64,000 nt of DNA. Source: Neelides folsomi (taxonomy: Eukaryota; Arthropoda; Collembola; Neelipleona; Neelidae). The translations under genes and the position numbers were made by a program. Positions 16,300 through 58,922 of this stretch are shown one piece after another. The DNA is taken from positions 1 to 64,000 of the forward strand of contig JAQGBZ010000324.1 in the NCBI GenBank assembly GCA_034687125.1. The letters run 5' to 3'. Numbering within the stretch: position 1 is the stretch's first letter; every line of letters starts with the position of its first letter. The notes below the pieces were generated by a model that had not been told where the DNA came from, made no database searches, and was given only the letters and a program-made list of their open reading frames with translations.

Positions 16300-19200
16300 A
16301 TGAGGAAAGTCCTTCTCCTCCTCCTTGTCCAATTGGTAAGAAAAAATGCTCAAACTCAAACAGTTTAAATTGCAATTTAACAATGCTTCATCTCCTTAAT
16401 GTAAACATTTAGAACTTGATGATTTATGAAGATTAAAAAATGTTATAGCTTACATGTAATGCAATGCAAATGTAAATGTAATGTAGTGTAAGTAATAAGA
16501 TCTGGTTAATTTACAAACTTTAATCTTAATCTTCTGAGTTTTACCTTGAAAGGTCCTAAAGAGTTCAAAGTGGACCTTTAAAGTGAACTTAAGGAGAATC
16601 TTCATAATTTTCCATATAAAGTCCATTTGCAAAGTTGCGCCATGAAATGTCTCATTTAGCCATCCTTTCATTTTGGAACTTCTTCTCATTTAAAATAACA
16701 TTATTTCACATAGTGGAAACACTTGAAAGTGGAAGTGATGCAAAAAGGTTGTGGGAGAAGAAGAAGATTCACTGGGTCATTTGTTGAAGAGATAAATCTC
16801 AAAGTTTGACACGTCACAATTGGCCATCACAATTATCCCGTGAACACAAGGCGTACAATTAAATATAAGTTATAAGTTGAAGCCGCATGGTTATAATTTA
16901 TTCTCTTGTATGTCAAATTGCTCAAGTAGCACCTTTCCCAAACCTTCGTGAGCGGCAAAGAGTTCCCAAAGTGGTTGCCTACTTTTCAACATCTCCAACG
17001 GCGGATCTCCCCACTTAGCCTCTAATTAATACTTCAGCTCTTTATTTATTATGCTCAAAAGATGAGTCAAATTAACGTTTTTTAATATCCTTTAACAATG
17101 CAAAATCTTTGCACAACTTCCGCATAAAACTTTTATTTTTAATAAATGAAATTCATATAGCTATAAGCCATAATGTTCCAACTTAATACTCTTAAATGAA
17201 CAATATATTGAAATGCATTTTGATATATTGTATATATAAATGCATTTGTATTGTAGTTGAGTAAATAGAAACCCATGTACATTAAATTAATTGTAAATTG
17301 TAAAATAAAGTAATTTTAACTAACTCTTTTTCATGTGAATAGATTTATCCTTTATTTAATTTTTATAATATAATAAGTTTTTTGGACAAAGTGTGCTTAA
17401 GTTTAAAATACATATGTTGTAGTGGTAAGGTATAGAAATTTGTTAATAAAAAGAGTTGAATAGAAAAGAATGATTTATCGTATGCTAGAGATTTGAATGA
17501 CGTGACAACTCTCACTTATCCTCATAATTTGAACTCGAGTTGTCATTTAACGAAACATGATTTTACACCTCTCCCGTTACTAACAAACCGCTTGAAACAA
17601 TGGGGGAGACGTAAGCGACACAAAACCATATTTATTATCTTGGTAGATTAAACCCAATGCTAATTCCACTAATTTCATAAATTGGCGCGTAAGGTTTACC
17701 AGTTTCACTTTGCTCATAATTTAATTAATTAAAAATATTTCTATTAAAAATATTCTTCTTACTTTAACTCTCTGTAATTATATATATATATAATTATTTT
17801 ATTCATTTGTTTAGTTTTTAATTCTATATAATATATTTATAAAAATTTCATTTATTTACAATTCCTATACATTAAAATGATTTAATTAGATTTTAAATTA
17901 AATTATTTACGTTAATTTGCACTTATAAATAAAACTTGACACAAATAAATGTAAATAATTTATATATACGCATGCTTGTAATGAATATAATAGGTCAAAA
18001 GCTATCTGAAACAACCCCAAGATGTTTAGTATATAAGCAATTAATTATTTTATAGTTGTTTTATTTGTTGTTTTAATTCCTAAAACGTGTTAAATGGAAT
18101 TGCTAATTTTTATAGGGCAATAAAATGCGGTTGGTCCAACTTTGTGCGTTAAGTGAATTGTAGATAACGTGAAATGTTCTAAATATTCCGTGCATATAAT
18201 TAAATGCGCATAAAATGTATCTTATAAATAAAAGCTTTTAATTATTACATGGGTGAAAATTGAAAGTCTTGTCAATCAAATTAAGATAAGAAATTACTAT
18301 TTAGCTCTACTTATTATGTAACGTTACAGTTAAGATATCCGCCAGACAGATCCCATTAATAAAAGGAGACGTGTAATGTCAGAAATGTGTGAAACCGCAA
18401 GGCCGCCGTTATTTACCCCCGTGAAAATATCTGACAATGAAAAAACAATTAAAATTTGTTTCATCGATGAATCCAACATTTAACAAATTCTCGATCCACA
18501 ACACGCACCATGGAAAGCTATAAAGTTATTTAACTAGTTGACCTTGGACCTCTATTAGTTAATTAACATTTTGGAATAGTAAAATAAGAATATGAATAAG
18601 TTTTATCCATAATGGCCTACTTTACTAATATGGATTAAATAGGAATTATTTTTCTTCCGTTTTATATGTTACCATTTTATTTATTAACTAATATTAATTG
18701 GCTAATTGTATTTAGATAGTTAATATAATTGATGTTATTGCTATAGTAAATATTGTTTTGCTTTTAATTTCTTAGATTGGTTCGTCATTTGGTCAATATG
18801 ATGACTATGACTATCATGCAGTTGAAGCAACAAATTTGGAGTTGAAGAAAGAAAATCACCAACATCATCATGCCAAGGTTGAGAGTTTGAATGCCAAATG
18901 CTCAAGATCGGGTTTAACTGTTGATGTCAAATTTGATAGTCCTTTTAATGGAATCATTTACAGCAAGGGGCATTTTTCAAATCCAAACTGCAGGTAAATC
19001 ATTATGAATAAATATTTAATTGAGGATAAAGAAAATTCTCGTTAAAAGTTCAAAAAATTAAATTAAAGAAAAAATTCTTATTAAAACATTTCAATTTTAG
19101 ATATCTTGAAGCCAATTCAGGAACTGAAAATTTCAATTTTAAAGTCCCCGATGGCGACTGTGGAACTGAACATTCGGAAAGTTCAAATTCAATTAGTAAT

Positions 19201-22200
19201 GTTATTATTTTCCAATCGGACGATTTGGTCCAAGTAAGATTTTATTCAATCATTTTGGCATTGTTAAAATATAATATTATATTTTAATTGTATTTATATT
19301 TTAATGATTATTTTCATTAAAGTGCTAAATTTTTAAACAAAGGAAATTTGGGACGTTGCCAAAAAGATCTCATGTGACTATGGTGGAGAAGAAAAAGAGC
19401 GCCAAGGAAAAATGGTTGTTTTTAAACCATTAACTGTTGGAATGCTAGATGTGATGCATCAGCCATTTAAAAGTAGTTCGCTTGATTGTTGGATGGACAT
19501 TCAAAAAGGAACTTTCCCAAATGTATAATTTCAATATTAAAAAAATCATTTTAGTCGTAATTCCTAATATCCTAATTAAATTAGAGTAGAGTTAACAATT
19601 TTACAATATCCTTATAGACAGTTCCTATTGGCGGCCAAATTGAAATCGGAGAAGAGCTTACAGTTTTAATCTATTTAAAAGATGAAAATAAAAAGTATGA
19701 CGTGAGCGTCAAAGATTGTTGGGCTTTTGATCGGGAAGATTTTGAAGGGCCGAATACAAGCAAGGTCCAATTGACAACTTTTGACGGATGTCCAAGGTAA
19801 ATGTTTACATTTGGTAGACTTAATATTTAATATGGAAAATTACATTAACTATAATAATTATTTTTAATTATTTTAATAATAATAATATTCCCAAATTTTA
19901 ATAATAATAATAATATCATTATTATTAGAAAAAAGAAATTGATTGGGCAATGGGCAAGCACGTTCGAGACTGGAGACACCGGAGCTACAACAATAGCTTT
20001 TACCAATATGACGGCCTTTAAATTCCCCGATACGGATAATGTTCATTTAACTTGTAACATAGAAGTAAGAATAAACATTATAATTGTATATAAAAGATCT
20101 AACAAATAACACACATGGTATATGTAATAATTAATGATAATTAATATAATATTTCCAGTTGTGCAGAGATAGATGCGAAAACACGTGCATGGCAAACTCA
20201 GAAGGTTCGTCAGTAGAAAGAAGAACAACAAGCAGACCAAGAGTTGAATCAACAACCAGAAGAGGAAACTCACAAGGACAACAGTTTGAACAATTTGAAC
20301 ATGAACAAACCACACGACCTAAATTATGCTATCCAGGTAATTAATTATTATATCAAACTATCTCAATTGATATTAAATTTTTGAAGAATAAATTAAATTT
20401 AAGATTAAATAATAATTCCCAATCTCGTTAATTTGTTAAAGGTCAAATTGATCCAAATTGTCCTCCTGTTTGTGGACCAGGTATAATTCAATAAAATGAA
20501 TAATTTAATGTGATTGATATATGTGATACATTAAAAATTAAACAATTGTGATTTAAATGAAGTTAATTAAAATCTGTAATTTTTAAAGGTTCAACTGACC
20601 GAAGATGTTCTCAGCCCACAACTTCTCCTCCAAGAAGAATCGAAACGACTTACAGACCACCAGTCGAATACACAACATCAAGAAGAATTACAACACAAGC
20701 ACAACGAGAATACGAAACAACTTCACCAAGATGTTATCCAGGTGCGATTGATCCAAGATGTCCTCCAATTTGCACTCAAGGATCAACTGATAGAAGATGC
20801 CAACAAGAAACGCCTTCACCTACCCGAGGACCAGTTTGCTATCCTGGTAATTAAATAATTTAAAATTTGACTACATAGTTTAATATGCAAATTATAATTA
20901 TAAAGTATAACTAATAACTAATTTATAATTACTGTGTAGAATTAAATTTAAATTAAAATAAAATAATTAATATAAAATAAATTAGCAATATAATTATGGT
21001 TTTTTATGTTTAAGGTTCAACTGACCCAAGATGCCCACAGGAAACAACATACCGTCCAAGAATTATTCAAAAAACTACACCGCCAATTGAATACACAACT
21101 CAAAGGATTATCAACAACGAACATGAAATCGACACAGGTTCAGTCAGGTGTTATCCAGGAGCAATTGACCCAAGATGTCCTCCAGTTTGCACTCCCGGAA
21201 GCACTGACAGGAGATGTTCACAACCAACAACTTCTCCGCCAAGAAGAGTCACAACAACTTACAGACCAATTGAAACCACACAACGAAGGATTGTAACTAC
21301 CCAACGACCGGTTGAAACAACTTCAGCAAGATGTTACCCGGGAACTATCGACCCGCGTTGTCCTCCTGTGTGTACTCCTGGAAGTACAGATAGAAGATGC
21401 CAACAAGAAACTCCTTCAACACGTGCTCCGGTTTGCTATCCCGGTAAATTTAAATAATTTATTCTTGATTTTTTGCTTAAATTAAAATTTATCAAAATTT
21501 TAAATATAGAAATTATCTAATAAATAAATTTAAAATTCTTTATATTAATTATAGGATCAACGGATCCAAGATGTCCACAAGACACAACTCCGAGAAGAAG
21601 AGTGGAAACTACAACTTATAGACCAATAGAATACACAACAACAAGAAGAGTTTACACAACTCAACCTCCTGTTGAAACAACGTCAGTTCGATGTTATCCG
21701 GGAGCTATTGATCCAAGATGTCCACCAGTTTGCACTCCTGGTTCAACTGACAGAAGATGTTCACAACCAACAACTCAACCACCACGGAGAATTACAACTA
21801 CAACTTATAGGCCAATAGAAACAACAAGAAGAATCGTAACAACTCAGCGGCCATATGAAACTACTACAGCAAGATGCTATCCCGGAGCCATTGACCCAAG
21901 ATGTCCTCCTGTTTGCACTCCAGGAAGTACTGATAGGAGATGTCAACCAGAAACTACAAGAGCACCAGTTTGTTATCCTGGTAAATATTCTTTATAATTT
22001 ATATTTGTAAATTTTTAAAGCTTAATTTTATCCTGTATTAAATCTTATGTTAATATTAAATTCAACTTAGATTTTAATACCGAGTAATTATTATAATTAT
22101 TATCAAATAATTATCTAAATAATTTCTATATTGTTTAAGGTTCAACGGATCCTAGATGTCCACAAACAACCCAACCACCAAAAACTCGACCAACCACAAG

Positions 22201-25200
22201 ACCAACTGAATACACAACACAGAGAAGAATTGTAACGACTCAAAGGCAAATTGAGACAACTTCTGCAAGATGTTATCCAGGAGCCATTGATCCAAGATGT
22301 CCTCCAGTTTGCACTCCAGGAAGCACAGATCGGAGATGCCCTCAGCCAACAACTCCTCCTCCACGAAGGATTGAAACTACAACAACTTATAGGCCAATTA
22401 CAACCACAAGAAGAATTGTAGCAACACAAAGACCTACAGAAACAACTTCAGTGAGATGCTACCCGGGAGCTATTGATCCAAGATGTCCTCCTGTTTGTAC
22501 CCCTGGGTCAACAGATAGAAGATGTTCACAAGAACCGACAACAACAAGAGCTCCAGTTTGCTATCCAGGTACAGTTATATAAAAATAATTTTATTCAACC
22601 TTATCAATAAAGATTGATAATTATAAGTTATTAACTGTAAACTATATTTTATACATAGCAATACAACATTAATAATAACAATTAATATTTAATAATTGTT
22701 AATAATTATCTTCAAAAATTTCAAGGTTCAACTGACCCACGTTGTCCACAAGACACAACTCGAAGGAGAATCGATACCACAACTTACAGACCAATAGAAA
22801 CCACCCGGAGAATTGTAACAACTCAACGGCCATACGAAACCACATCTACGCGATGTTATCCGGGAGCTATTGACCCGAGATGTCCACCTGTTTGCACTCC
22901 CGGAAGCACGGACAGAAGATGTCCACAAGAACCAACAACAACAAGGGCACCGGTTTGCTATCCTGGTATTTAAAAAAACTATATTTGTTATGCTCTTTTA
23001 TTTTTTTGAGTATTAATAAAAGTTAATTTTATGATACAAATATTTCTCTTTAAGGTTCAACTGATCCAAGATGTCCACAAGAAACAACACGAAGAATTCA
23101 AACCACTACTTACAGACCGATAGAAACTACAAGGAGAATTGTCACAACTCAAAGGCCATACGAAACCACATCAGTTAGATGTTACCCGGGAGCAATTGAC
23201 CCGAGATGTCCGCCTGTTTGTACTCCTGGGTCAACTGATAGAAGATGCCCACAAGAACCGACAACAACAAGACTTTCAATTTGCTATCCAGGTAATTACT
23301 AAAAATATTAACAATTAGTAATCAATATTCAATAACTACAGTAATCAATATTTAGAATTAGAATTTAATTTTAGCATTTAATATTCCTAATTAAAATTAG
23401 TTAATTCTGATAAAATGTGTTCAAATTTAAAAACGTTAATTAATTGTATTTAATTTAATTATTTTTTAAGGTTCAACTGATCCAAATTGTCCTCAAGAAA
23501 CTACCCGAAGAAGAGTTGAAACAACAACATATAGACCTATTGAATACACAACACAAAGACGAGTTGAGACAACTCCCAGATGCTATCCAGGAGCTATTGA
23601 TCCGAGATGTGCTCCAGTTTGCACTCCTGGTTCAACTGACAGAAGATGTCCACAGCCTACAACTCCACCACCAAGGAGAGTCGAAACGACGACATACAGA
23701 CCAATAGAAACAACCAGGAGAGTCGTTACAACACAAAGACCTTACCAAACCTCTACAGCAAGATGTTATCCAGGAACAATTGATCCAAGATGTCCACCGG
23801 TTTGCACACCGGGAAGTACTGATAGAAGATGTCAACCAGAAACTACAAGAGCACCAGTTTGCTATCCTGGTAAAATTTAATTATTTTAATACGTTTATTT
23901 AAAATCCGATATGAAAATTATAAATTAAAATCTTAACTATAATAACAATTTTAATTTATTAATTTAAATTTTTAAGGTTCTACTGATCCAAGATGTCCAC
24001 AGACGACAACTCAAAGACGAATCCAAACAACAACATATAGACCAATTGAAACAACTCAAAGAAGAATCGTCACTACACAACGACAATATGAGACAACTTC
24101 CACACGTTGTTATCCAGGAGCAATTGACCCAAGATGTCCTCCAGTTTGCACCCCGGGAAGCACTGACAGAAGATGTCCACAACCAACAACTCCTCCACGA
24201 AGGGTCGAAACAACAACTTATAGACCGATAACAACAACAAGGAGAATTGTGACAACTCAACGACCTGTAGAAACAACTACATTTAGATGCTATCCAGGAA
24301 CAATTGATCCAAGATGTCCACCTGTTTGTTCTCCAGGTAGCACAGATCGCAGATGCCCACAAGAGCCATCAACAACTCGAGCACCTGTGTGCTATCCAGG
24401 TAATACCTCGAATGAAATTTTTTATTCATTATATATTAATTTAAATACAATAGTGTATTAATTAAATAATTATGTATAATAATAAATAAATAATTAATTA
24501 ATTTAAAATTAATTTTACTTACATATTATATTAATTATAGGATCAACGGATCCAAGATGTCCACAAGACACAACTCCGAGAAGAAGAGTGGAAACTACAA
24601 CTTATAGACCAATAGAATACACAACAACAAGAAGAGTTTACACAACTCAACCTCCTGTTGAAACAACGTCAGTTCGATGTTATCCGGGAGCTATTGATCC
24701 AAGATGTCCACCAGTTTGCACTCCTGGTTCAACTGACAGAAGATGTTCACAACCAACAACTCAACCACCACGGAGAATTACAACTACAACTTATAGGCCA
24801 ATAGAAACAACAAGAAGAATCGTAACAACTCAGCGGCCATATGAAACTACTACAGCAAGATGCTATCCCGGAGCCATTGACCCAAGATGTCCTCCTGTTT
24901 GCACTCCAGGAAGTACTGATAGGAGATGTCAACCAGAAACTACAAGAGCACCAGTTTGTTATCCTGGTACATAATCAATAATAATTTTAATTAGCTTTAC
25001 ACATTTTTTATAATTATTAGGTAATTAACTTTAATGAAAATTATAATTTAAGTAATAATACTTATTTTATTATTTATTTTTATTTTTTATATTTTTTTTA
25101 AATTCTAGGTTCAAATGACCCAAGATGTCCACAAACAACAAGAAGAGTTGAAACAACAACATATAGGCCAATTGAATACACGACGCCAAGGAGAATTGAA

Positions 25201-25818
25201 CCAACTCAAAGGCAAAATGAATCTACTTCAGTTAGATGCTATCCTGGCGCAATTGATCCAAGATGTCCACCTGTATGTACACCTGGTTCAACTGACCGAA
25301 GATGTCCACAACCAACAAATCCTCCACCGAGGGTTGAAACAACTTATAGACCAATTGAATACACAACACCAAGAAGAGTCCAAACAACTAAAAACTATCA
25401 AAATCCATGTTATGAAGGCAAGTTAAATCCAATGAAGTTTTTTCAATGCTCTACAATAATTTTTTAACAATAATTATATTTACATATGCTAGTATTTATT
25501 TATTAATTAATTATTATTATATTTATAAATTAAAGGTTCACAAGACCCGGAGTGTCAACCACAAACCACAACCACCCAACGAACTCGGATTTGCTATCCA
25601 GGACAAATCAGCCCATATTGTCCTCCGGTATGCACTCCTGGTTCAACTGATAAAAGATGTTCAAATAATCAAGAATCAAGTGGTAATTATTTCAATTAAA
25701 AATTTTAATCGTGTTTAGAAAAGAAAATATTGAAAGGGGATATTTAGTGAAATTCATTAATTAAATAATATTTTGCTTTATAGAAGGATATGTCTATCAA
25801 CGTGGCCATGGAATCTAA
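16300..25818 (+). CDS. ZP-domain secreted matrix protein with long Thr/Cys repeat tail (20 exons)
   Basis: Spliced exons, all phases consistent: 16300-16335, 18776-18993, 19101-19233, 19343-19522, 19618-19796, 19929-20064, 20159-20336, 20442-20480, 20589-20846, 21015-21443, 21555-21980, 22140-22568, 22726-22965, 23055-23291, 23471-23869, 23977-24399, 24541-24966, 25109-25417, 25536-25682, 25784-25818; 1618 residues. Exon 1 encodes only the signal peptide (MRKVLLLLLVQL). Exons 2-7 encode a zona pellucida domain, about residues 45-310: AKCSRSGLTVDVKF opening, VKDCWAFD and LTTFDGCPR in the ZP-C half, AFKFPDTDNVHLTCNI then an LCRDRC...C end as in arthropod cuticular ZP proteins. From exon 7 on, about 27 CYPG modules (CYPGAIDPRCPPVCTPGSTDRRC type) alternate with Thr-rich RPIETTRRIVTTQRP linkers that are likely O-glycosylated. 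ZP proteins polymerise in apical extracellular matrix and cuticle. No furin-plus-TM tail is seen, so it should be fully secreted; it ends EGYVYQRGHGI. Confidence 0.9.
16336..18775 (+). other. Long first intron of the ZP gene
   Basis: The 2.4 kb intron begins GTAAGA after the signal-peptide exon and ends TTTCTTAG before IGSSFGQYDD. It is far longer than the other introns of this gene (mostly 90-180 bases), the usual position for regulatory elements, although I recognise no specific site. No independent gene is seen inside it. Confidence 0.65.
21540..21983 (+). repeat. Exon copy A, identical to copy B at 24526
   Basis: The 426-base exon at 21555-21980 and the one at 24541-24966 read as identical base for base. 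Identity extends 15 bases into the upstream intron and 3 into the downstream intron, then stops, while the neighbouring exons of the same family differ at many positions. This is a very recent exon duplication or a gene-conversion tract. Confidence 0.85.
24526..24969 (+). repeat. Exon copy B, identical to copy A at 21540
   Basis: This is the second member of the identical pair; it contains three CYPG units and two Thr-rich linkers. The flanking introns are unrelated beyond the shared 15-base acceptor tract and the first three donor bases. Confidence 0.85.
25418..25535 (+). other. Probable GC-AG intron in the ZP gene
   Basis: Exon 18 ends TATGAAG and the intron starts GCAAGT, the strong GC-donor consensus (AG/GCAAGT). 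Only this donor keeps phase 1 into the following exon at 25536 (GTTCACAAGACCC), where the Cys-rich repeat resumes (CYEG then SQDPECQ). A GT donor that preserves the frame is not visible nearby. Confidence 0.75.
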
Positions 25819-26005: not shown

Positions 26006-26590
26006 CAGCGAGCGTCAGAAGTAACGGACACATCTAATCCGTTTTTATTTCCGAAACTATTAAACTTAGGATATTCTAACTAACTGGATCTTAAAGACAA
26101 AGGTCTAAAATAGATTTAGCCAAATTATGAAAAATATCGGTTAAATATTAAGGTTAGTTTATTTCAATTCAGCGCAAAAATTCAAATACATGGGATTTGG
26201 CATTTCTCCTATTGCTAATTTTATCATCTATAATAAATATCTGAACATTTAATGTGAACAAATTAATAATTAAAAATGTAATTATTTATAAAAAGTGTAA
26301 TTAAATTTATGTTATTTGAACTCCACTGATTTCAACAATCCTCTGAAGTCATGGTGAAAGTTCCGCGCATTCTAGCAAACAGTTTTTCAATATGAAGCTT
26401 ATCTCTATCTTTTTCCATGTATTTGAATTTTTGCGCGGAATTGAAATAAACTAGCCTTAATATTTATTCGATCTTTTTCATAATATGGCTAAATCAATTC
26501 TAGACATTTGTCTTTAAGGTCCACTTAGTTTGAATATCCTAAGTTCAATAGTTTCGGAGATAAAAATAGGTTCAATGTATATACTGACCT
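26006..26590. mobile_element. Decayed Tc1/mariner-like element
   Basis: The left end follows TATA and starts cagcgagcgtcagaagtaac, typical of Tc1-type termini. The next 190 bases are present in inverted orientation at about 26405-26580 (for example tttccgaaactattaaactt against aagttcaatagtttcgga). The right terminus itself is degraded, so the exact end and the TA duplication there cannot be set. The 200-base middle has only a weak resemblance, on the minus strand near 26310-26400, to a Tc1 transposase C-terminus, with stops. It is non-functional. Confidence 0.75.
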
Positions 26591-27403: not shown

Positions 27404-28558
27404 ATGTTTGTTAATTACAGAATAATTTACTGTTTGTTCACTTTGTTTTTGTTGACCATTGAACAAGAAATAACCACCACAACAACTCTAACAACTGCTG
27501 CTTCAGAAATTACAACAACTCTAGCAGCTTCGACAGCAGAAACTACAACAACAAATCCAGGAGCCCGAACTGCAGAAACTACAGCAACAACTCCTTCAGG
27601 TCCAACAGCAGAAACAACAACTCCTTCAGGTCCAACAGAAGAAACAACAATAACTCCTTCAGATCCAAAAGCAGAAACTACAACTCCTGGACCTCCAGGT
27701 CCAGAAGTTATAACAGAAGGTGCCCAAACACTTCCTGCAACAACAATAACCACAGCATTGCCACCAAGTGGGTCAAATGGTGACGTCCCTGCACCACAAG
27801 AACGAAATAATGATGGAATGATTAGAACAACAGAGCCACCAAAATCAACTGAAAGTCCTCCGGATGCAGGAACAACAGAAGCCCCAAGAGAGGGAAGTAT
27901 CCCCCCAGGACTTGAATTTGAAAATACTGCGTGGAAAAAACTTGCAGTGGACCTTTCAAATACTCCGGTAGAAGGAGAACCAAATTACAAAAAAGTACGT
28001 AAAGACTGGGAAGAGTCTAAAACATGCACAACATTAAGAAGAAAACGACCAACTGGAGCAACTGGAACTGGAGGAAGTGGCGGTGGAGCTGAAACAACAC
28101 AAGCAAGTGGAGCAGGTGGCGGTGTAACAGAACCACCATTGGGTGGAGCGAGTGGCGATGGAGCAAATCCACCATCAAATGGAGACACTCCCAGTGGAGG
28201 AGCCAGAAGAAAGCGCCATCTATTAGGAAAAAATCAAAAGACATATCAAGCAATATACGAAGCATGCATCAGACTTGGACTGTGGGATTTAGAAAAGCCC
28301 TTACCTTATCCATTAACTACAACAACAACTCAATCCCCTCATTATTCAGTTCCGCCAAAAACCGACGCTGAGAAGAATATTGCTATAAAGAAGTATGGCC
28401 TTGCGTGCAAAGGTTTGAGAAGAGTCACCAACAAACCAAACCCAAAGAAAAAACGACAAGCAAAGACACAATCACATTTACAAGAATTGCTCAAATATTG
28501 TCAAGCTATTGGAATTATTAAAGATGTGAATTCAGTGCCAGTTGCCAGTGGCAGTTAA
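27404..28558 (+). CDS. Secreted mucin-like protein with basic cleavage sites
   Basis: The frame encodes 384 residues from the ATG at 27404, which directly follows a TTTTGTTTCAG acceptor; the 5' leader is probably spliced. A hydrophobic signal peptide (about residues 1-21, IIYCLFTLFLLTIEQ) precedes a Thr/Pro/Ala-rich region to about residue 165 with repeats of the type PSGPTAETTT, expected to be heavily O-glycosylated. A Gly/Ala-rich spacer at about 215-265 lies between two basic clusters (RRKRP near 212, RRKRH near 268), and a third (KKKRQ) is near 347; all resemble furin-type proprotein sites. The C-terminal third has Cys in short helical-looking segments (IYEACIRLGLWDL, KYGLACKGL, LLKYCQAIGI). 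I do not recognise the family. The upstream neighbour is another Thr-rich secreted protein, but the two sequences are unrelated outside Thr richness. Confidence 0.78.
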   Translation: MFVNYRIIYCLFTLFLLTIEQEITTTTTLTTAASEITTTLAASTAETTTTNPGARTAETTATTPSGPTAETTTPSGPTEETTITPSDPKAETTTPGPPGPEVITEGAQTLPATTITTALPPSGSNGDVPAPQERNNDGMIRTTEPPKSTESPPDAGTTEAPREGSIPPGLEFENTAWKKLAVDLSNTPVEGEPNYKKVRKDWEESKTCTTLRRKRPTGATGTGGSGGGAETTQASGAGGGVTEPPLGGASGDGANPPSNGDTPSGGARRKRHLLGKNQKTYQAIYEACIRLGLWDLEKPLPYPLTTTTTQSPHYSVPPKTDAEKNIAIKKYGLACKGLRRVTNKPNPKKKRQAKTQSHLQELLKYCQAIGIIKDVNSVPVASGS

Positions 28559-28831: not shown

Positions 28832-29395
28832 TTATTCTACACATCTCCCACTTAAAATAGAAGAGAATTTATCATCAACGCGTCGGTCTAATGAAGGATA
28901 AAATCCGCTTCGGAACATTTGGGAAGCTCCGCCGCATCCTTTGTCTTCGAATAAAGTAAAACATTCATTGCCATAAATTTGCAAAGAAGAGACTTGATCA
29001 TTAAAATTGTAATTTAATTGAACACACTTTCCAGATTCAATTAAAATATCCATTTTAGGACCTATAATTCAAAAAATAAATTATTAAATATTTAAAACAA
29101 TAATTGACATTTATTATTAAATTATTACGTTACTAGGTTACTAATATTTATTCAATTAATAATCGTCAGTTTTTTAACAAAATGAATAAGAATTGTTTTT
29201 ACCGTTAAAATTTTTGTCTCTGTATAATTTGGCCTTTGGCATTGTTCTATCGTTATTCATACTTCTTCCATTCAGATCAATTCCTGATCGTGCATTTGAA
29301 AGATAGTTTTCATAATTTCCAATAATCATTTTCCTACAGTTTATTAATTCATTTGAGATAATGACGATAACAATCAAAATACTTTTTATATACAT
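28832..29395 (-). CDS. Secreted single-domain beta/gamma-crystallin-like protein
   Basis: Two exons on the minus strand, 29395-29203 and 29061-28832, joined in phase 1 across AAC-G/GTAAAA...TATAG/GT, give 140 residues. The start has a signal peptide (MYIKSILIVIVIISNELINC). Residues about 54-138 form one beta/gamma-crystallin domain: AKLYRDKNFNG opening strand, ESGKCVQL, YNFNDQVSSLQI, then CFTLFEDKGCGG and a closing DDKFSSI strand. The intron falls just after the first motif. Such secreted single-domain crystallins occur in many invertebrates, often as Ca-binding or matrix proteins. Here the ND..SS type sites are only partly kept, so calcium binding is uncertain. The assignment to the fold is strong. 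Confidence 0.85.
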
Positions 29396-30454
29396 TTTAT
29401 ATAAAGAATGGGGATATTTATTATTGCAAAATGACTGAAATTAAAAACAAAGTTATACCTGATAGCTTTTTAATAATTAATGCTCCAGTAAAATTGAATT
29501 CTTTTATATACAAATGTACATTCATTACAGGATATAGACAATTTTATAAAGAACTTTAAATTTTATTTCCTATTTCTTAGTCATTCCATATTTTTTTAAA
29601 TTCGAAGTTTTACTAATAATTTTACAAATCGATTAACTTTAATTTAAATCAATATGAATGACATTTCTTGTATCACTGAAATATTAAAAGGAAATATACT
29701 CATACAAATGTACATTTATTACTGGATACAGACAATTTTATAAAGAACTTTAAATTTAATTTCCTATTTCTTAATCATTACATTGTATTTAAATTTGGAA
29801 TTTTACTAATAATTTTACAAATCGATTATCTTTAATTTAAATCAATATGAGTGACATTCCTTGTACCACTGAAATATACTCAATCAGGTTTTATTCATCA
29901 AGTATATTAAGAATTTTGACCACAAACAACTTGAAGTTGAAGCTACCCAATAAACCAGGAATCATTGAAATATGGTTAAATAAAGGTATTTCACTTCCTT
30001 AAATTAACGTTGAGAATGTCCGCGTAGATATCGTAGAAATAACATTCACGCTAAAATATGGTTAAATAAACGTTAATTTAACGTTGAATAAAGAAATCGA
30101 TATTGGTTGAATAAACGTTAAATTAATTTTAAATATTCTATTACTTAATAATGCTAAAAATGCGAAATAGGTACCGAATTTGATTATTTTATTTCAGAAT
30201 TATTTTTATTCATTCAATTCAATGTAGGAATAGATACATATTTAAAGGAATTACAATGTAGAATTATAATAGGAACTAAAATACATTTTTTGGTTATAAA
30301 CGAGTTTAGAATTACAAACAAATATTCCTAAATGTGAACTATATAGGATAATTATAAAAAAACTCCTATAATTAATATAAAGTAGCGGGTATATATACCT
30401 CTTTACCTGGTTCAAAATTTGTTTCGAGTAAGTATACTTCTTTTCAGTTATACG
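29396..30454. other. Intergenic region with repeats
   Basis: Contains the 194-bp tandem repeat described separately. From about 29965 to 30130 a loosely repeated word (atggttaaataaacgtt) recurs three times. No coding sequence is supported. Confidence 0.45.
29511..29885. repeat. Two-copy direct tandem repeat, period 194 bp
   Basis: Copy 1 begins caaatgtacattcattac at 29511 and copy 2 begins caaatgtacatttattac at 29705. Both run through acaattttataaagaacttt, ttactaataattttacaaat and atcaatatgaatgacatt with about 90% identity by eye. The repeat lies just 5' of the crystallin gene. Confidence 0.85.
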
Positions 30455-44136: not shown

Positions 44137-44850
44137 ATTAAAAAATTTCAACGTAAAAGCCACTGGCATCCTGAGCCAGAACTTTGACAATTGGAAATCT
44201 GATTATGCAACAACAGTTAGCGAAAATTTCATTGCTTCTTATCACCAACATTTATTTGCTATGCGTTTGGATCTCGACATCGACGGATTGAAAAATATGA
44301 TATATTCAGTAGACATCGTAGCTGCGAATATTCCTACAAATACTCCAGGGAACAAATATGGTCAAGGGTTCGGACCTAAAATGACTAAATTGAACATTGT
44401 GAAAGAAGAGAAAACCAAAACCGATATTACAAAGGAAGATTTTGGTATGTGACCAAACCAGACGCAAAAGATCCAGTGACCGGGACAGATATTGGTTATT
44501 CGTTTGTCCCTCTAAATACAATGCGAATTGTGTTGTATCAAGATAGTCCGCTCATCCCCAAAGCTTCATTTACGCTTAACGACGTGTGGATTACTCGATA
44601 TAAAGAAGATCAGATTTTTGCTGGAGGTTTTTATTTGAATAATTCTGGATTGAACGAGTTTTGTGAAGCAGATTTGAATGGGAATATTGCCAATGAGGAT
44701 ATTGTCCTATTGCACATATTCGGTCTAACCCACATAGTGAGAATTGAAGATTTTCTCATCATGCCAGTAGAAACAATTGGATTCACTCTGAAACCTAAAA
44801 ACTTCTTGAGCGAAAATCCAACAGCGGATGTTCCACCTGTGAAACATTGA
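44137..44850 (+). pseudogene. Copper amine oxidase C-terminal fragment, frameshifted
   Basis: Beginning near VKATGILSQNF at about 44150, the reading frame carries the C-terminal half of the copper amine oxidase catalytic domain: ASYHQHLFAMRLDLDIDG with the HxH copper-ligand pair, GNKYGQGFGPKMTKL, then after a one-base frame change at about 44430-44445 (TKEDFG-stop in one frame, RFWYVTKPD in the next) the second half VGY-like GYSFVPLN, DVWITRYKEDQIFAGGFY, NIANEDIVLLHIFGLTHIVRIEDFLIMPVE with the third copper-ligand His, and NPTADVPPV. The N-terminal domains and the topaquinone motif (N-Y-D/E) are absent upstream. Amine oxidases need that residue, so even without the shift the fragment could not oxidise amines. 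No introns interrupt it. The shift is a mutation or a sequencing error; loss of the 5' half is real in this window. Confidence 0.85.
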
Positions 44851-48665: not shown

Positions 48666-48895
48666 TTTTTTCTCTTAGGGGTTTTGTTTATTCAATATTT
48701 TATTTACTTTAAAAATTTCTTACGATTTGTTTTTGTGTCCATGGTTGAAGTAACAATATTTATGTTGTCAAGAGAAAACTAATCGTAAGGTATTCCGAAT
48801 TAAATAAAATCCAAATGCATTAGATTTTTAAATACTACATGACTAGGTAATTCAATTAATCTATTAATTAACACAATTAATTCAATTTAATTAAA

Positions 48896-51388
48896 ATGTT
48901 TCGAGGATTTCACAATGTGTGTTGTCTTAGATTTAAATCGAGTTTTAGAATTTTTACGTTGACTTGTAATTTACAGATTTATATGATAATTGTAACTTTA
49001 CGGTTGGTCTTAGCAAACACGAATTTTCATAATTTGGATATTCAAGTTTCAAATTTAGAAACATTTAAAGAAACATCTTATTATTTATCGTCTATGAGAG
49101 CTTGTGAAATTCATTTAATAGAACAATTTCCCTATCATGAAACAGATTATATCGATTTGCTCAACCAATATGTTATTTTTTATTCGCTACAAAAATCCAT
49201 TGTTACATTAAAAACTCAAATACCCAATTTATCAATTCATAGATTCCATAAGAAATATTTAACTTGCAAAGTTATTATTTTTATTAGTAATCAAATAATT
49301 TATTACGACCATCAAATTCAAAATTTACATGATGCAATAGTTCATATGAAAATGACAACTCCATTAGATAAACAAACTTTTTTCATTTTAGCATTTAGTT
49401 GTGATTTGAAAAATATAAAAGATACAGAGCAATGGAAATACAATTATTACAAATTGAAAAGCGTTCCAACTTCTAATTTTAATTTCTACAATAGTATGAA
49501 TTATCCAGCAGATAGTCAATTAATTTATTCAATATCATTAAAAAATAAAATTCCTCCAAGACTCAAAATATTGAAAAATTTCATGAAGTTTTTTAGTGAA
49601 AAAAATCGCAGAACAGTTTATAAACATTTCCTTGCAAATTTAATTCCAATTCCAGAGCTCGACCGTGAAAATTTAAAAGATTTAAAAAATTTGAATTATA
49701 ATGAAATTTGGAATTCTATTTTTTCTCATCTAGATTTATGTGATTTGAATGATTTCGAAGGGGCATTATTAATGCATCCATCATTAAGCTTTATTAAATC
49801 GCTAAAAAATAAACAAGAATCTGATCCTTCTGAATGTCAAATGTTAGCAAAACTTACTCATAGTTCAGAAAAAATTGAATGTTTTTTGATGATCGCCGCT
49901 ATTTATTTAAATTTCACAATTACTAACGAAGACTATAATTCTAAAGATGTGATTAAACGTATTTCACCACGTGTTAATTCACAAGAAATTGAAAGATTAA
50001 ACACAAGAATTCAATATGAATATAACAATTCGCAAATATTTTCTCCCTTATTTTCAACTTTCCCTTCTGATTGGGTTCAATACTCCTATACAAAATATAT
50101 TGATAAATCTACAGTAATTAATTATTCACTTATTTTACTACCATTTGAAATGATTGTATGGACTTTGTTCATAATTTCAGTTTTCATGATTGTAATATTT
50201 CAAAAAATTAATTTCTATTTAATTACTAAATTAATTTCTAACAAAAATAATACAAAAAATTTTAATGGTCCATTTTCAATATTTACAATCTTCTTACACC
50301 AAAGTAATCCAATTTACTTTAAAATACCAAAGGGAAATATTAGTATTATAATTATAGCGAGCTTTTTATTATTAATGGGATTTGTTTTAAGTTCGGCCTA
50401 CAAAGGAAAATTCTTTTTAATTCTTGTTTTTGATCCCCCGCCAAAAATGTACCAAACATTTGAGGATTTGGCCATGAAAGAAAAAAATAAAATTTTTACA
50501 ATTTCAGCAATGATGAGTTATTTTGACAAACGTGAACTTGATAAAATCGATCTAATACATGAAAATATTGAACTATCTTATTATTTCCAAAGAGTTACTT
50601 CATTTTTTGTTAGTCTATTATTGAATGGAAAAACTTCAAAACTGAATATTATTTTCAAAAATTTAAAAAATATGATTTACTTTACTTCTCATCCATTTTT
50701 ATTTTTTATATATAGTATTAAACGTCAAATGTTTTTAATTACAAATAAAGGAAATTTGACTCTCCCAAAAACATTTTATATTCTAGATGATTTGATAATG
50801 TTATCTAACTTTGAAAAATTCATCCACTTTAATTACCCGGATAAATATTTCGTTATTAATCAATTCAAGTTAGAACCAAGATATTCGACAAGGGTCCATT
50901 TTGTGTTTATGTCTAATTCACATTTAAACATTAAATTATTAAATACCCGTACTAAAATTATTGAATCTGGTTTATATGACTTGTGGGGAGAAGGTTTTAT
51001 GAATAACTTCGTTATTTTATCGGCAAATAACCAAAAAGATTATTTAAAATTCAGAAAATGGAACCGAAAAAATTATAATAAAATAAATACTTTTAAAAGT
51101 TTGTGGGCTCCAAAGTTCATATATGAGACGAAAAAATTAAACTTTAAAAAAGTGAAGCCTTTCTTAATAATCGTTATTTATTTAAGTGTAATCTCAATAG
51201 TTATATTTTTTCATGAAATTATAATTTCAAATTACATTAAAACATGGGTTTCTTTAAAACCAATCCAAAATAAATTATTCTCTTATATTAAAAAAGATTT
51301 GATCGTTAATTTTTATCAACAAAATCAAATAAATAGATTAAGATATTTAAAAGATAATCATAAATTGATTATTGTTGAGCCTTGTTAA
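48896..51388 (+). CDS. Intronless divergent ionotropic receptor (chemosensory)
   Basis: A single 830-codon exon. A hydrophobic N-terminal segment near residues 28-41 (IYMIIVTLRLVLANT) is a likely signal peptide; the true start could also be Met30. An extracellular region to about 405 contains the first part of the ligand-binding domain. The channel core follows: TM1 about 411-436 (LPFEMIVWTLFIISVFMIVIF), a pore-like segment (FTIFLHQSNP), TM2 about 480-500 (IIIIASFLLLMGFVLSSAYKG), and the ionotropic-receptor signature SSAYKGKFFLILVFDPPP followed by YQTFEDLA. The last helix (FLIIVIYLSVISIVIFFHE) is at about 756-776, with a 50-residue cytoplasmic tail. Such receptors are ligand-gated cation channels in sensory dendrites. 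Glutamate-binding Arg is not apparent, as usual for divergent members. Lack of introns fits lineage-expanded, possibly retroposed, ionotropic receptors of arthropods. Confidence 0.85.
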   Translation: MFRGFHNVCCLRFKSSFRIFTLTCNLQIYMIIVTLRLVLANTNFHNLDIQVSNLETFKETSYYLSSMRACEIHLIEQFPYHETDYIDLLNQYVIFYSLQKSIVTLKTQIPNLSIHRFHKKYLTCKVIIFISNQIIYYDHQIQNLHDAIVHMKMTTPLDKQTFFILAFSCDLKNIKDTEQWKYNYYKLKSVPTSNFNFYNSMNYPADSQLIYSISLKNKIPPRLKILKNFMKFFSEKNRRTVYKHFLANLIPIPELDRENLKDLKNLNYNEIWNSIFSHLDLCDLNDFEGALLMHPSLSFIKSLKNKQESDPSECQMLAKLTHSSEKIECFLMIAAIYLNFTITNEDYNSKDVIKRISPRVNSQEIERLNTRIQYEYNNSQIFSPLFSTFPSDWVQYSYTKYIDKSTVINYSLILLPFEMIVWTLFIISVFMIVIFQKINFYLITKLISNKNNTKNFNGPFSIFTIFLHQSNPIYFKIPKGNISIIIIASFLLLMGFVLSSAYKGKFFLILVFDPPPKMYQTFEDLAMKEKNKIFTISAMMSYFDKRELDKIDLIHENIELSYYFQRVTSFFVSLLLNGKTSKLNIIFKNLKNMIYFTSHPFLFFIYSIKRQMFLITNKGNLTLPKTFYILDDLIMLSNFEKFIHFNYPDKYFVINQFKLEPRYSTRVHFVFMSNSHLNIKLLNTRTKIIESGLYDLWGEGFMNNFVILSANNQKDYLKFRKWNRKNYNKINTFKSLWAPKFIYETKKLNFKKVKPFLIIVIYLSVISIVIFFHEIIISNYIKTWVSLKPIQNKLFSYIKKDLIVNFYQQNQINRLRYLKDNHKLIIVEPC

Positions 51389-53537: not shown

Positions 53538-55241
53538 TTAACTATATTTAGTATCAATTTTATGAACATTTTTCTTATGTCTGTCAAGTTTGGATTTAAT
53601 TTTGAATGACGATTGACACAAATGGCAATTAAAGGGTCTATCAGGAAGATGAATCCGCATATGCATATTCAATTCATAATTCTTTTTAAACATTTTTCCA
53701 CAACCTTCGAAAGTACAAGGAATAGTTTTTTCCCCATGAATCTTCATATGAATCTTCAATCGATACGGGGAATGTTCAGTAAAAGGGCAAAATTCACATT
53801 TTAGAGGACGATCATCTGGAGATAAATGTTTCCGTTTTTCATGAATTCTTAAACCATCAATTGTACCTGAAAATAATAAAAACATCAATATTAAGTAAAT
53901 ATATTTAAAATAATTATAAAGCTAATTAAGTAAAATAAATTAATGACTAAGTAAAAAAATAATAATTAAACATATACATAATAATTAAATTAAAAATGAA
54001 TCTTACAAAATGTTTTATTGCAAATATTGCAAGTTTTGTCTTCAACAGACCCCCGATGAACAATGTAAATATGCGAAGTCAAATAAGATTTCGTATAAAA
54101 CACAGCACCACAAGTTTCGCAGATAAAAGTTTCCGATTTTAAATGAACTTGTTTCATGTGAGTTGAAAGAAACGATTTGGTCGTAAAGTTTTTTCCGCAC
54201 AATTCGCACATACATTCGTATCTTCTTTCATGAACTGATTTTTGATGGTGTTTGAGAAGTCGCGACTTTTTGAAGATTTTATTGCATTTGTCACATGGAA
54301 AAATTCCTTCGGCATCGGCTGAACGTTTTTGTTTCGATCGGGGTATACGTGGCTTTGAAGGCTTTGGCTTTTTCTTTATTGGTTCATCGTCACCTTCACT
54401 GTAATCTGTTTCATCTGAATCTGATTCGACTTTATTATTGGTTAAATCTTTATTGTTGGTTAAATTTTTATTGTTAGTTAAATCTGTATTGTTTAAAATC
54501 TTCGGAATTGAATCATTGCCCTCAAGATTGTCATTATTGTCATTGTTAATTTCGTAGTCGGAATCTGCAAAATCGTTAGTGTCGTGAAAATCATCGTTGG
54601 AATCACTGTCTTTATTTTCATTTGTTTCAATTATTTCATTTGGAACTTTTTTCGGCTTTTTCCTCAATTGTCTTTCTGTAGAAGGAACCTCTGGAGAATT
54701 TGTATTTGGCAAAATGGATTGGTCGAGATCTTGAAATTCCTCGGGTTTGTCTAATGGTTCTTCTTTGATTTCAGCGACTTCTTCGTAGATAATTCCTTCC
54801 CTTCTTTTTAGCTCTAAATAAAGGAAATAAAGTTTTAAAATATGTGTTTAATATTCCATGCTAAATTAAAGTAATTATTACAATAGTTTATTTAATTATG
54901 AATGACGATTATGTAATCATGATTTTATATTTAAAATAAATCTCACCTTTAGAAATGACACAAGAAATGTTGGAATTACTTTTAAAATTGGGAATGGAAT
55001 TTGCTGTGTTGTGAATTTGATTCAAAATGTCTTGTTTAAATTCTTCCATGAGTTTTAAATGGTAACGGAGTTTGCTCAGCTTCATTGAACATAACAAACA
55101 AAAAGAAATTGATTTTAATGGGAAAGTGACAAGATTCATTGGAATTGAAAAAATGTCCAATAAGGTCTTTATGTCGAATTGGGGAGGTTGATCGGTGAAT
55201 GTATTGCAACAAATAGAACACGTTTTAGAATTCTTCCCCAT
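53538..55241 (-). CDS. ZAD-like C2H2 zinc-finger protein, array copy 1
   Basis: Minus-strand exons 55241-54947, 54813-54007, 53866-53538, both junctions phase 1; 476 residues. Exon 1 is a 98-residue module with CSICC near residue 8 and FCLLC near 47, then LRYHLKLMEEFKQDIL, the C-x2-C...C-x2-C plus helix layout of the arthropod ZAD dimerisation domain. Exon 2 has an acidic, Asn-rich linker with ELKRREGII...IKEEPLD at its start, a basic stretch (KKKPKPSKPRIPRSK) and three fingers. A fourth finger is split by the second intron (CNICNKTFC/TIDGLRIHEKRKH). Exon 3 has three more, including CTFEGCGKMF with C-x4-C spacing, for seven in all. A DNA-binding transcription factor is the expected role; the targets are unknown. 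Confidence 0.88.
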
Positions 55242-55752
55242 TTCGGTTTTTCGAAAGACTGATGATTTTAATTATACAATTAACATTCAGTTAGATGTAA
55301 TTTAAGTAATTGTTAAAGGTTTTAAAAAGACAAAAATAATGAAATTGGATCGACTTCTGACTTCGGAAAACCAGAAAAAAAGTAAAGTGTTGGATTTATC
55401 CTTTTTGCGCTTTGGGCAAGAAATTTCTATCCCATTGGCTCCTTTAATGTCTCAGAATTACCTCAATTTTAATCTTGGATTTGATGCCAAAAACAATAAT
55501 TGTAATACAAAATGCAAAGATGCAGATTAGATGCAATGTGCAATAGGTAAATTCTGTTTCATCAGATAATGTCACTTAATAATAAAATTTTAATATATTA
55601 AAGCGATTAGATTAAAATAAATATTAAAACAAGAAACCATTTTGTAAAATTGAATAAAATTACTATTATGTTCAGATTAACAAAATTTTTATTTCATTTT
55701 ATTTTCATATTAAGCTATCTATAAATATAAAAAAAATGTTAATGAATTCTTC

Positions 55753-57507
55753 TCACAATTTATTATGAAATCCATGAACATTTTTCCTGTGTCGTTCAAG
55801 ACCGCATTTCATTTTAAACAATGATGAACATAAATGGCATTTAAAGGGTCTCTCAGGGTTGTGGTTTCTCAAATGCGTATTCAAATCAGACTTCCTCTTA
55901 AACATTTTTTCACAACCTTCGAAAGTACAAGGAATAGTTTTTTCCCCGTGAGTCTTCAAATGAATCTTCATTCGATATTGTGAATGTTCAGTAAAAGGGC
56001 AAAAGTCACATTTTAACGGACGATCATCAGCAGACATATGTTTCCGTTTATCATGAATTCGTAAAGCTTCAATAGAACCTTAAAATCAACCAAAACAAAT
56101 ATAAGACAATTGAATCGCTAATTAAAAATGAAGCATTTAAATATTTAATGAATTAATTAAAATAATTATTGATTAAAATATAAATTGATTAAAATTGCAA
56201 AAAACTTACAAAATGTTTTATCGCAAATTTTACAAGTTTTTTCATCAACAGTTCCTCTATGAATTTGGAATATGTGAGTTGTCAAACTTGGCTTAGAATA
56301 AAATACAGCACCACAAGTCTCGCAGATTAAACTTTCAGACTCAGATTTTAAATGGATTTGCTTCATATGATTCGAAAGAAGTTGTTTTTTTGCATAGCTC
56401 TTGCCACACAATTCGCAAACACATTCGTATCTTCGTTCATGGACAGAGAATTTGTGTTGTTTGAGAAGACGAAGCTTTTTGAATGTTTTATTGCATTTAT
56501 CACAAGGAAAAATTCCTTCAGCATCGTCGGCACGTTTTTGTTTCATTTTTTGTTTTTTCTCACGTGTTTTTTTTCTTTCTTTATCGAGAGGTTCTTCATA
56601 TTCGTCGTACATCGTTTCGTTTGAATCGCTTTTATTTGATTTTTGTTCCATCTCAGCATTAAAATCATCACTGTTGTCATTTTCATCTTCATTGTTGTCA
56701 AAGTCATCAATGGAATCGGGATCGTCATTAATGGAGTCGTTTTCATAATTTCCTTCATCGGTGTCAACATCATTAATTACATTCAGTGGTTGGGATTCGC
56801 TAATGATGGATTCTTTAATTTTATTTTTTAATCGCGTTGATCGTTTACTTTTTTGTATTTCACTTTCAGGAATATTAATCTTTTTTGCAGAAACTGACCA
56901 AATTCGACTTGTCGCTTCTTTTTTCAAATTGTTTAATTGTTCTTGTGAATGAGATTCACTTTGTGGAGAATTTGTATTTTCATCAATGGTGTGATCAAGT
57001 TCTTGAAATTCCTCAGGCTCATCTAATGGTTCTTCTTTAATTGACTCAAATTCTTCCAAAACAATTCCTTCCCTTCTTTTTAGTTCTAAATAAACAAAAA
57101 AGAGTTTTAAAACTAACAATCATATTAATATTAACATTATAATTGTACTATTAGTACAGGTATTATTAATTTTCATTGTAATATAATAGTTTCGTTTAAT
57201 TATCAAAATGACCTTTTGAAATGACAAAAGAAATATTTGAATGTCTTTTATTATCTTCAATGGAATTTGCTGTGTTGTGAATTTGATTCAAAATGTCTTG
57301 TTTAAATTCTTCCATGAGTTTTAAATGGTAACGGAGTTTGCTCAGCTTCATGGAACATAACAAACAAAAAGAGACGAATTTTAATGGGAAAGTGACAAGA
57401 TTCATTGGAATTGAAAAAATGTCCAATAAGATCTCTATGTCGAATTGAGGTAGGCGATCTTTGATTGTATTACAACAAATTGAGCACATTTTTGAATTCT
57501 TCCCCAT
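55753..57507 (-). CDS. ZAD-like C2H2 zinc-finger protein, array copy 2
   Basis: Exons 57507-57213, 57085-56210 and 56078-55753, phases 1 and 1; 498 residues. Exon 1 has the same length as copy 1 and is nearly identical over LLDIFSIPMNLVTFPLK and the following FCLLCSMKLSKLRYHLKLM. Its donor is the weak GTCATT, whereas the other copies have GTGAGA or GTAATT, so splicing may be inefficient. Exon 2 begins ELKRREGIVLEEFESIKEEP, has a long acidic Asp/Glu/Asn region and a basic patch (KKTREKKQKMKQKR), then three fingers. The split finger is CKICDKTFC/SIEALRIHDKRKH and exon 3 adds three: seven in total. Confidence 0.85.
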
Positions 57508-58324
57508 TTCGATAAACTGATAATTTATTTATTCAATTAACATTAATTTTAAAATTGTTAAGAAAATTAAGAATGAACGGAGAACGAAAATGAAATTGTG
57601 AAAATTAAAATTAAGAATACAAGTAAAAAGTTAGAACTTGGAACTTTTTCGCAAGAACTTTTCATTGCATTTAGCATTTGTTCCTTAATGTCTCACATTT
57701 ACCTCGTAGTTTATTTAAAGGGGCTTGGAAGTTGGAACAATTTAAGACCATTTAGTTATTTGAACAATAATTAAATGTTTAAATATTACGATTTAGTAAT
57801 ATCACTAAAATTCGGTCAAAGGTGAAGGAAACGGCGTGAAAACGGACAACCATTTTCAGATAATCGTGGCCTGACAACGGGCAATGGTTACCCTAATTCT
57901 GTTGAGAGAAAAATGTCAATTCAAAATGTTCCATGAGACCTTGCATTTAGGTTTTCAATTTCCATTCTCTTATTTCCCTCGATAAATTATTTTATTTGTG
58001 CTTCAACAATGTAATTTCAAATCCTTCAATTGTAAAATATTATGCTGATAGAGTTTCAATTTAATATGAATGCTTATTTAATTTAATTTTTATTCATTAG
58101 ATTGGACGTTACAATGAGATGCTTATTAATTATAGTAGAATATAAATAGAATATAAATAGATACATTGCCTTAGATTGCAATAGCAGGATTAGGGTAGCT
58201 TGCACTATTTATTTGAATGTATGTATAGATATATTGGCACTCAAGTCAAATCTATCAATCTTTAAATATTATATCGAAAAAGGGCAAAAAATGGGAAAAT
58301 GTGTTTGAATAAAAAATGTAGTTT
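57508..58324. other. Intergenic region within the zinc-finger array
   Basis: A segment at about 57660-57710 (catttagcatttgttccttaatgtctcac) recurs about 150 bases upstream of the other array genes (55430, 59075, 61310), a conserved upstream element or duplicated DNA. No exon. Confidence 0.5.
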
Positions 58325-58585
58325 TCATTCACTTTCTGGATTCGAAATAGGGGAGGGGATTGAAGGAGATGGGATAAAATCAAGTTGATTCCTCATTATA
58401 AATTGGAAGATTTCTGGGGATGGAAGTTCATCGCCTTGAGAAGCTAATTCTTGTCGAGCTCCAGCGTCTTCTTGCTGTTGGATCTTTTCCTCTTCGACCC
58501 CTTTCATGTTTTTAGCGTTGCTTGGATCCTCAACATAAGAGTCATCTAATCTCTTAATGAAATAAAAAAATAAATTGGGAATCAT
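58325..58585 (-). CDS. Uncertain acidic exon within the zinc-finger array
   Basis: An 86-codon minus-strand frame; a possible acceptor (TTTTTTATTTCATTAAG) precedes RLDDSYVEDPSNAKNMKGVE. The sequence is acidic and Gln/Glu-rich (EEEKIQQQEDAGARQEL) and ends with proline/serine repeats (IPSPSIPSPISNPESE). It could be the 3' exon of the stub at 58695-58922, but that frame has a stop before any donor, or a separate decayed linker. Its GC content is above the flanks, which favours real coding ancestry. Confidence 0.35.
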   Translation of the reverse strand: MIPNLFFYFIKRLDDSYVEDPSNAKNMKGVEEEKIQQQEDAGARQELASQGDELPSPEIFQFIMRNQLDFIPSPSIPSPISNPESE

Positions 58586-58694
58586 TAGATTTTTATATAT
58601 TCGAGTAAATAGCTCAGCCTATTTATAAATACATTGTTTGTATGTTAACTTTTAATTAAACGATATTTATTAAATGAAAAGAATATAAATACTT

Positions 58695-58922
58695 TTATCC
58701 GGAGGGTTTGGGTTCATCAGGAGTTTCGCCCATGAGCGCATCAAGTTTTTCTTTCAAGAATTTGATCTCTTGGTTTGCTTGGTCAATTTGTTTTCGAAAC
58801 GTTCCGTTTACATTCTTCAACTTTGCGTTCTCATCTCGCAACTCTTGAATTTGCTCAGATTGAGGTGATTGATCGTTGATGTCATTACAACAAATCGAAC
58901 ACGTTGATGAATCCGTCTCCAT
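58695..58922 (-). CDS. Short ZAD-stub plus coiled-coil protein
   Basis: A 75-codon single-exon frame starts METDSSTCSICCNDINDQSP, clearly the same N-terminus as the four long array genes. At residue 21 it switches to a heptad-rich helix (IQELRDENAKLKNVNG, FRKQIDQANQEIKFLKEKLD) and stops after PDEPKPSG; AATAAA follows about 30 bases beyond. The second CxxC, the linker and all fingers are missing. It would lack DNA binding but could pair through the coiled coil. It may be a degenerated copy fused to new sequence or a functional short interactor. Confidence 0.6.
   Translation of the reverse strand: METDSSTCSICCNDINDQSPQSEQIQELRDENAKLKNVNGTFRKQIDQANQEIKFLKEKLDALMGETPDEPKPSG

Follow-up and report, generated by a model that had tools for sequence, protein, structure and literature searches.

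ZP-domain proteins usually, if not universally, carry a furin-type cleavage site after the ZP module and a C-terminal transmembrane segment or hydrophobic patch. Gel-forming or integumentary mucins have Thr-rich stretches interrupted by Cys modules, and in this they resemble the tail of the protein described here, but they are not known to have a ZP head, and their Cys modules belong to other families. ZP modules are known to form filaments in apical matrices (PMC7665627, PMC6303098, PMC12456955), and according to the egg-coat section of a 2026 review, no insect ZP protein has yet been characterised whose matrix polymerisation was verified by experiment (PMC13361971).

Among the described cases that we compared, Dumpy of Drosophila has the nearest published history, as far as the consulted parts of the published account go. 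Like the protein proposed here, it belongs to the apical matrix and joins a ZP domain to a very long region of repeats. In Dumpy, this region is under concerted evolution, a single exon holds the repeats, the ZP domain is C-terminal, and a membrane segment is present (PMC2930355). Dumpy is made of EGF-DPY modules, and its one large exon encodes a 102-residue repeat about 40 times over in nearly identical copies. In the protein studied here, by contrast, the ZP module is N-terminal, the repeats are spread over exons with one or two in each and mostly differ from one another at synonymous sites, and a search for a transmembrane-like stretch found none. EGF modules, a feature of Dumpy, gave no match at E values up to 10 in Pfam scans of residues 13-596 and of exons 11-12. 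LET-653 of Caenorhabditis elegans demonstrates that a ZP protein can do without a membrane segment (PMC7665627); it is described with PAN domains and with a furin-type site (RRYR) after the ZP domain, whereas the protein studied here has a Cys-looped tail after its ZP module and no furin-type site was found in it. Trynity of Drosophila has three PAN domains, a ZP domain and a transmembrane domain (PMC6303098). It shares a complete ZP module with the studied protein, which has a repeat tail in place of the membrane segment.

Our data point toward a ZP protein that is secreted into an apical matrix (the cuticle, or the lumen of a trachea or gland) and whose mucin-like tail of Cys loops was built by exon copying. 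We give this reading a probability of roughly 75%.

Gene model and ZP head

The window (the whole 64-kb stretch of DNA that was analysed) carries the gene on its plus strand at 16300-25818. An exon-by-exon rebuild from splice signals and open frames gave a conceptual model of 20 coding exons with a CDS of 4857 bases, encoding 1618 residues with a single stop at the end. In this model, a putative signal peptide is followed by the ZP module and a tail of 1268 residues. The original prediction had given the same number of exons (20), the same lengths of the repeat exons (39 to 429 bases), the same phases and the same end point, and the end that it claimed, 25818, is the last base of the rebuilt stop codon. 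The donor is GT in 18 of the 19 introns and GC (GCAAGT) in intron 18 (25418-25535), which separates exons 18 and 19; the acceptor is AG throughout (19/19), and at least two in-frame stops are present in every intron (19/19). Introns 1 to 6, in the part encoding the signal peptide and the ZP module, have the phases 0, 2, 0, 0, 2 and 0, and introns 7 to 19 are all in phase 1 (13/13).

Exon 1 (16300-16335, 36 coding nucleotides) has a phase-0 donor and would encode the start of the putative signal peptide. Of the listed candidates, we preferred it for its CAAAATG start context, its hydrophobic core and a TTG/GTAAGA donor in phase 0 (the slash marks the splice junction here and below); other upstream candidates were set aside for a poorer donor, phase or start context. 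The product of exon 1, MRKVLLLLLVQL, joined to IGSSFGQ is a plausible signal peptide, and this is the least certain part of the model.

ZP-N and ZP-C are encoded by exons 2 to 7 (18776-18993, 19101-19233, 19343-19522, 19618-19796, 19929-20064 and 20159-20336). In a Pfam scan of residues 13-596, ZP-C was recognised by Zona_pellucida (PF00100) with an E value of 5.8e-12 and 46.3 bits (cut-off, 24.6), and ZP-N was recognised by CUT_N (PF25057) with an E value of 5.5e-9 and 36.9 bits (cut-off, 27). The general ZP-N model PF23344 scored 24.3 bits, slightly below its cut-off of 24.7. A ZP domain had been claimed upstream of the repeats, and the scores of PF00100 and CUT_N, both beyond the Pfam cut-offs, bear this out. 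The head contains 11 cysteines, an odd number. A search of the PDB sequences with the head returned one irrelevant match (ZPR1, E 0.98), and a comparison with its own genome revealed paralogous exons, the best of which outside the gene has an E value of 3.0e-19 at 40% identity. A profile search of the same genome with the ZP-C family gave eight places, five of them above the cut-off, and overlooked the ZP-C of the studied gene itself, which is split by introns.

Organisation of the tail

The tail contains 18 double loops (C-x8-C-x3-C-x8-C) and 10 single loops (C-x8-C), and the starts of successive cores are 60-83 residues apart. As claimed, twelve repeat exons (exons 8 to 19) begin and end in phase 1 (12/12), but the tail copies share descent and the 12 matching phases are thus not 12 independent events. 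The smallest unit is exon 8 (20442-20480, 39 nt), which runs from PG/ to PG/. One double loop is encoded by each of exons 9 (20589-20846, 258 nt; complete), 13 (22726-22965, 240 nt), 14 (23055-23291, 237 nt) and 18 (25109-25417, 309 nt; followed by the GC-AG intron), and two by each of exons 10 (21015-21443, 429 nt), 11 (21555-21980, 426 nt), 12 (22140-22568, 429 nt), 15 (23471-23869, 399 nt), 16 (23977-24399, 423 nt) and 17 (24541-24966, 426 nt). Exon 19 (25536-25682, 147 nt) encodes a diverged last double loop, CYPGQISPYCPPVCTPGSTDKRC, and exon 20 (25784-25818) encodes the C terminus EGYVYQRGHGI and the stop. The original prediction of one to three modules per exon can be refined to zero to two complete double loops, with half-loops at the exon edges.

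Introns 7 to 18 (12/12) cut the glycine of C-x-P/E-[G] in a C-x8-C loop (C-Y-E-G at intron 18), and therefore every one of these splices restores a loop. Intron 19, unlike these, does not interrupt this motif. AAG ends 9 of the 13 tail introns, compared to one of the six introns before the tail, a hint that the tail introns may descend from one intron. When the 13 tail introns were aligned with gaps and compared with shuffles (20 each), z reached 5.4; the top pair was introns 10 and 16, which lie just upstream of exons 11 and 17 and align best partly because of 15 bases that they share. Some weak homology among the tail introns may remain, and the sequences are short and AT-rich.

As a control for chance, we used second-order Markov sequence trained on the 64-kb window. 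The motif C-x-P-G-x2-D-x2-C did not occur in 100 simulations of 6 kb, compared to 45 occurrences of a slightly looser pattern in the real protein. The longest open frame in the simulations had a mean of 90 and a maximum of 164 residues, and hence open frames of 130-160 residues are unremarkable by themselves.

The tail is composed of 20.4% Thr, 16.7% Pro, 14.5% Arg, 7.3% Cys and 0.32% Lys, with a pI of 9.38, a mass of 143 kDa and 92 cysteines in fixed pairs. The content of Thr, Pro and Arg and the paired cysteines suggest O-glycosylated linkers, closed loops and a brush-like structure. An AlphaFold model of an 81-residue tail unit was of low confidence and without a usable fold (pLDDT 58.5, pTM 0.21), and thus speaks neither for nor against the loops; its 14-row alignment omits both units of exon 17, which are identical to those of exon 11, as well as exons 8 and 19.

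Relatives of the tail were sought in several collections. In Pfam, searched with residues 13-596 and with exons 11-12 (289 aa), nothing exceeded the cut-offs for the tail; matches to Optomotor-blind (21.4 bits, cut-off 25.2) and BmKX (13.3 bits, cut-off 24) were below them and were taken as chance. The unit of exon 11 (146 aa) had no match among the PDB sequences at E values up to 10. The search of its own genome turned up no further copy of the tail, since the matches to exon 11, of which the best candidates were scored, all fell within the gene (12/12 for protein, 11/11 for DNA). Viral contigs and contigs of bacterial and archaeal genomes contained no relative, as expected of an animal gene. 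In the literature, no occurrence of the full tail-loop strings was found, and for shorter loop strings CYPGS was the only one among the matches listed, mostly in the sense of CyPG prostaglandins. Texts on exon multiplication, on precedents and on named ZP genes show no such tail among the matches listed, as far as the retrieved portions extend. Within the scope of these searches, nothing contradicts the claim of the original prediction that the architecture is unlike that of described ZP proteins. It may well be, though, that databases already list the family as uncharacterised.

Age of the copies and alternative readings

For 44 of the 45 pairs among exons 9 to 18, pS lies between 0.42 and 0.72 (pN and pS are uncorrected proportions from a codon comparison, and some pairs span just 38-42 codons), and thus the array is mostly old. 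For the 16 inner cores, pN is 0.044 and pS is 0.599, and with this pN/pS of 0.073 the loops appear, at the codon level, to be held by purifying selection. A tree of 17 tail units, which leaves out the first double loop because two introns divide it, has just four pairs with more than 70% support, and two of these are the identical copies in exons 11 and 17.

Exons 11 and 17 are the remaining pair (pS 0). On the plus strand, the tracts 21540-21983 and 24526-24969, each consisting of the exon with 15 bases upstream and 3 bases downstream, have no differences in 444 bases (0/444), and other pairs among exons 9 to 19 reach 84% at most. The identity would be due either to recent conversion or copying or to an error of the assembly; the simplest reading is a conversion tract that was halted by unlike introns.

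How the array came about can be read in more than one way. The proposal that the tail was built by multiplying symmetric phase-1 exons is supported by the phases and by the position of the introns in the loop. That the gene is still "growing", as the original prediction had it, possibly holds for exons 11 and 17 alone; the other 44 pairs speak against it, since these copies look old. Symmetric exons permit gain and loss and two of the exons are identical, and one may imagine an array that actively grows and shrinks and is polymorphic in copy number. We consider this improbable, in view of the pS of those 44 pairs and of the ungapped identity of exons 11 and 17, which reaches no further than 15 bases upstream and 3 bases downstream of the exon. 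An end so close to the exon edges argues against a block duplication, which would have brought introns along. Somewhat less improbable, although still unlikely, is that exon 17 was copied from exon 11 during assembly or polishing and that there was no recent event at all. A tract without a single difference that stops near the exon edges is unusual, all the more as the other exon pairs are so much less alike, but the flanking introns are unlike on both sides past the 15 and 3 bases, and the 64-kb window contains zero N.

The unity of the locus is a related question. Head and tail are unlike in composition and in intron phases, and the locus might be regarded as two neighbouring genes, a ZP gene and a separate gene for a Cys/Thr-rich mucin. 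However, exon 7 (20159-20336) stays open in a single frame from the final cysteines of the ZP module through the post-ZP linker to the first half-loop, LCYP/G, which is followed by a phase-1 donor, and splicing of exon 7 to exons 8 and 9 restores CYPGQIDPNCPPVCGPGSTDRRC. Since exon 7 holds both the end of the ZP module and the first half-loop, it ties head and tail together and speaks against two transcripts, and we regard two genes as very improbable. The claim that the ZP head and the repeat exons form a single gene thus agrees with the splice model, in which exon 7 would bridge both parts and the joins at introns 7 to 18 would restore the loop. A single gene might nevertheless be orthologous to an insect ZP gene that already has a name, zye for example, and whose tail is in the databases, and the odds of this are only a little short of even. 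Drosophila has about 20 ZP genes (PMC6303098), and Zye is an apical extracellular ZP protein (PMC10857433); the accessible parts of the accounts of the Drosophila ZP genes and of Zye mention no such tail, which is weak evidence against an orthologue of this kind. The locus illustrates well how a matrix gene expands by symmetric exons, and it is probably a variant of a known sort.

In our model of a secreted apical-matrix protein, the N-terminal ZP module would assemble the protein into the apical extracellular matrix, and the C-terminal tail would be a mucin-like brush borne on the ZP filament. Its Thr/Pro/Arg-rich linkers, probably O-glycosylated, would be broken at intervals of 60 to 83 residues by paired short C-x8-C loops, which are probably closed by disulphides. 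The tail may have originated by repeated copying of one phase-1 exon with a linker and loops, and some exons may later have come to contain two units. Selection on the loops would have kept the old copies alike, and occasional homogenisation from exon to exon may have affected exons 11 and 17. From the sequence, we infer a single transcription unit, secretion, O-glycosylation, disulphide pairing, a role in the matrix and polymerisation. The gene would then be a natural case of a structural matrix protein that was lengthened by symmetric exons with the intron position fixed within the repeat, in which most copies are old and selected and one identical pair lies in a tract that ends near the exon edges. 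If orthologues vary in exon number, the anatomy of the gene would be linked directly to the physical length of a side chain of a matrix polymer.

Cleavage site, membrane anchor and neighbourhood

The furin-type motif R-x-K/R-R is absent from the whole 1618-residue protein, and R-x-x-R is absent from residues 1-352. No transmembrane-like stretch was detected in the protein with a 19-residue window and a mean hydropathy of at least 1.6, and the highest value for 19 residues beyond residue 310 is 0.18. A protein without a furin-type site and a transmembrane stretch might have an unusual mode of polymerisation and, if this reading is true, would do without the cycle of cleavage and anchoring that is usual for ZP proteins. 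It is imaginable that it represents a lineage-specific class of ZP proteins in which an exon-encoded, length-adjustable and disulphide-looped mucin tail replaces the cleavage site and the anchor, with conversion homogenising the units and exon skipping able to tune the length while the reading frame is preserved. We put this forward as a tentative idea that is more probably wrong than right.

Other ZP loci of the same genome were read from single exons, and absence of a site there therefore means little. Loci L009, L012 and L048 have a furin-type site and a hydrophobic stretch (that of L012 in the neighbouring open frame), and L011 and L013 have a furin-type site. L014 has a borderline hydrophobic stretch only, and L045 has RRRR within the ZP region. 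In the single exon read, L010, L016 and L035 (the latter two are one gene) have no furin-type site, and the single-exon readings of L015, L033 and L039 gave nothing usable on a cleavage site or a hydrophobic stretch. In L016/L035 (G000 C48, about 74.8-76.0 kb), the ZP-C exon runs on into a long Pro/Gln/His-rich stretch of low complexity. The studied gene may thus not be the only one in this genome to join a ZP head to a tail of low complexity and, as that exon of L016 is without a furin-type site, the lack of the site may not be special either.

Several other features were seen in the 64-kb window. Just past the ZP gene, 26030-26193 and 26415-26578 are the arms of an inverted repeat, each 164 bases long and 88% complementary to the other, with 221 bases between them; this may be a small mobile element. 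Just downstream of the gene, a single-exon frame on the plus strand (27404-28558) encodes a Thr/Pro/Gly-rich product with a hydrophobic N terminus and, by eye, RRKR twice; it had no Pfam match at 0.01. A short frame on the minus strand (28835-29068) is possibly beta/gamma-crystallin-like, with a Pfam score of 18.4 bits, below the cut-off of 25, and 29174-29440 may be a second exon of this crystallin-like frame, judged by eye. An exon of a copper amine oxidase is located at 44389-44850 on the plus strand (Pfam, 101.4 bits). The second half of an 835-aa frame at 48881-51388 (plus strand) weakly matches a ligand-gated ion channel with an E value of 0.021, below the cut-off, and the product is perhaps an ionotropic receptor. 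This weak match and the zinc-finger genes named next are signs, though no proof, of an insect-type animal. Finally, the minus strand at 53538-63609 carries a series of similar C2H2 zinc-finger frames, three of them recognised by Pfam and the others by eye.
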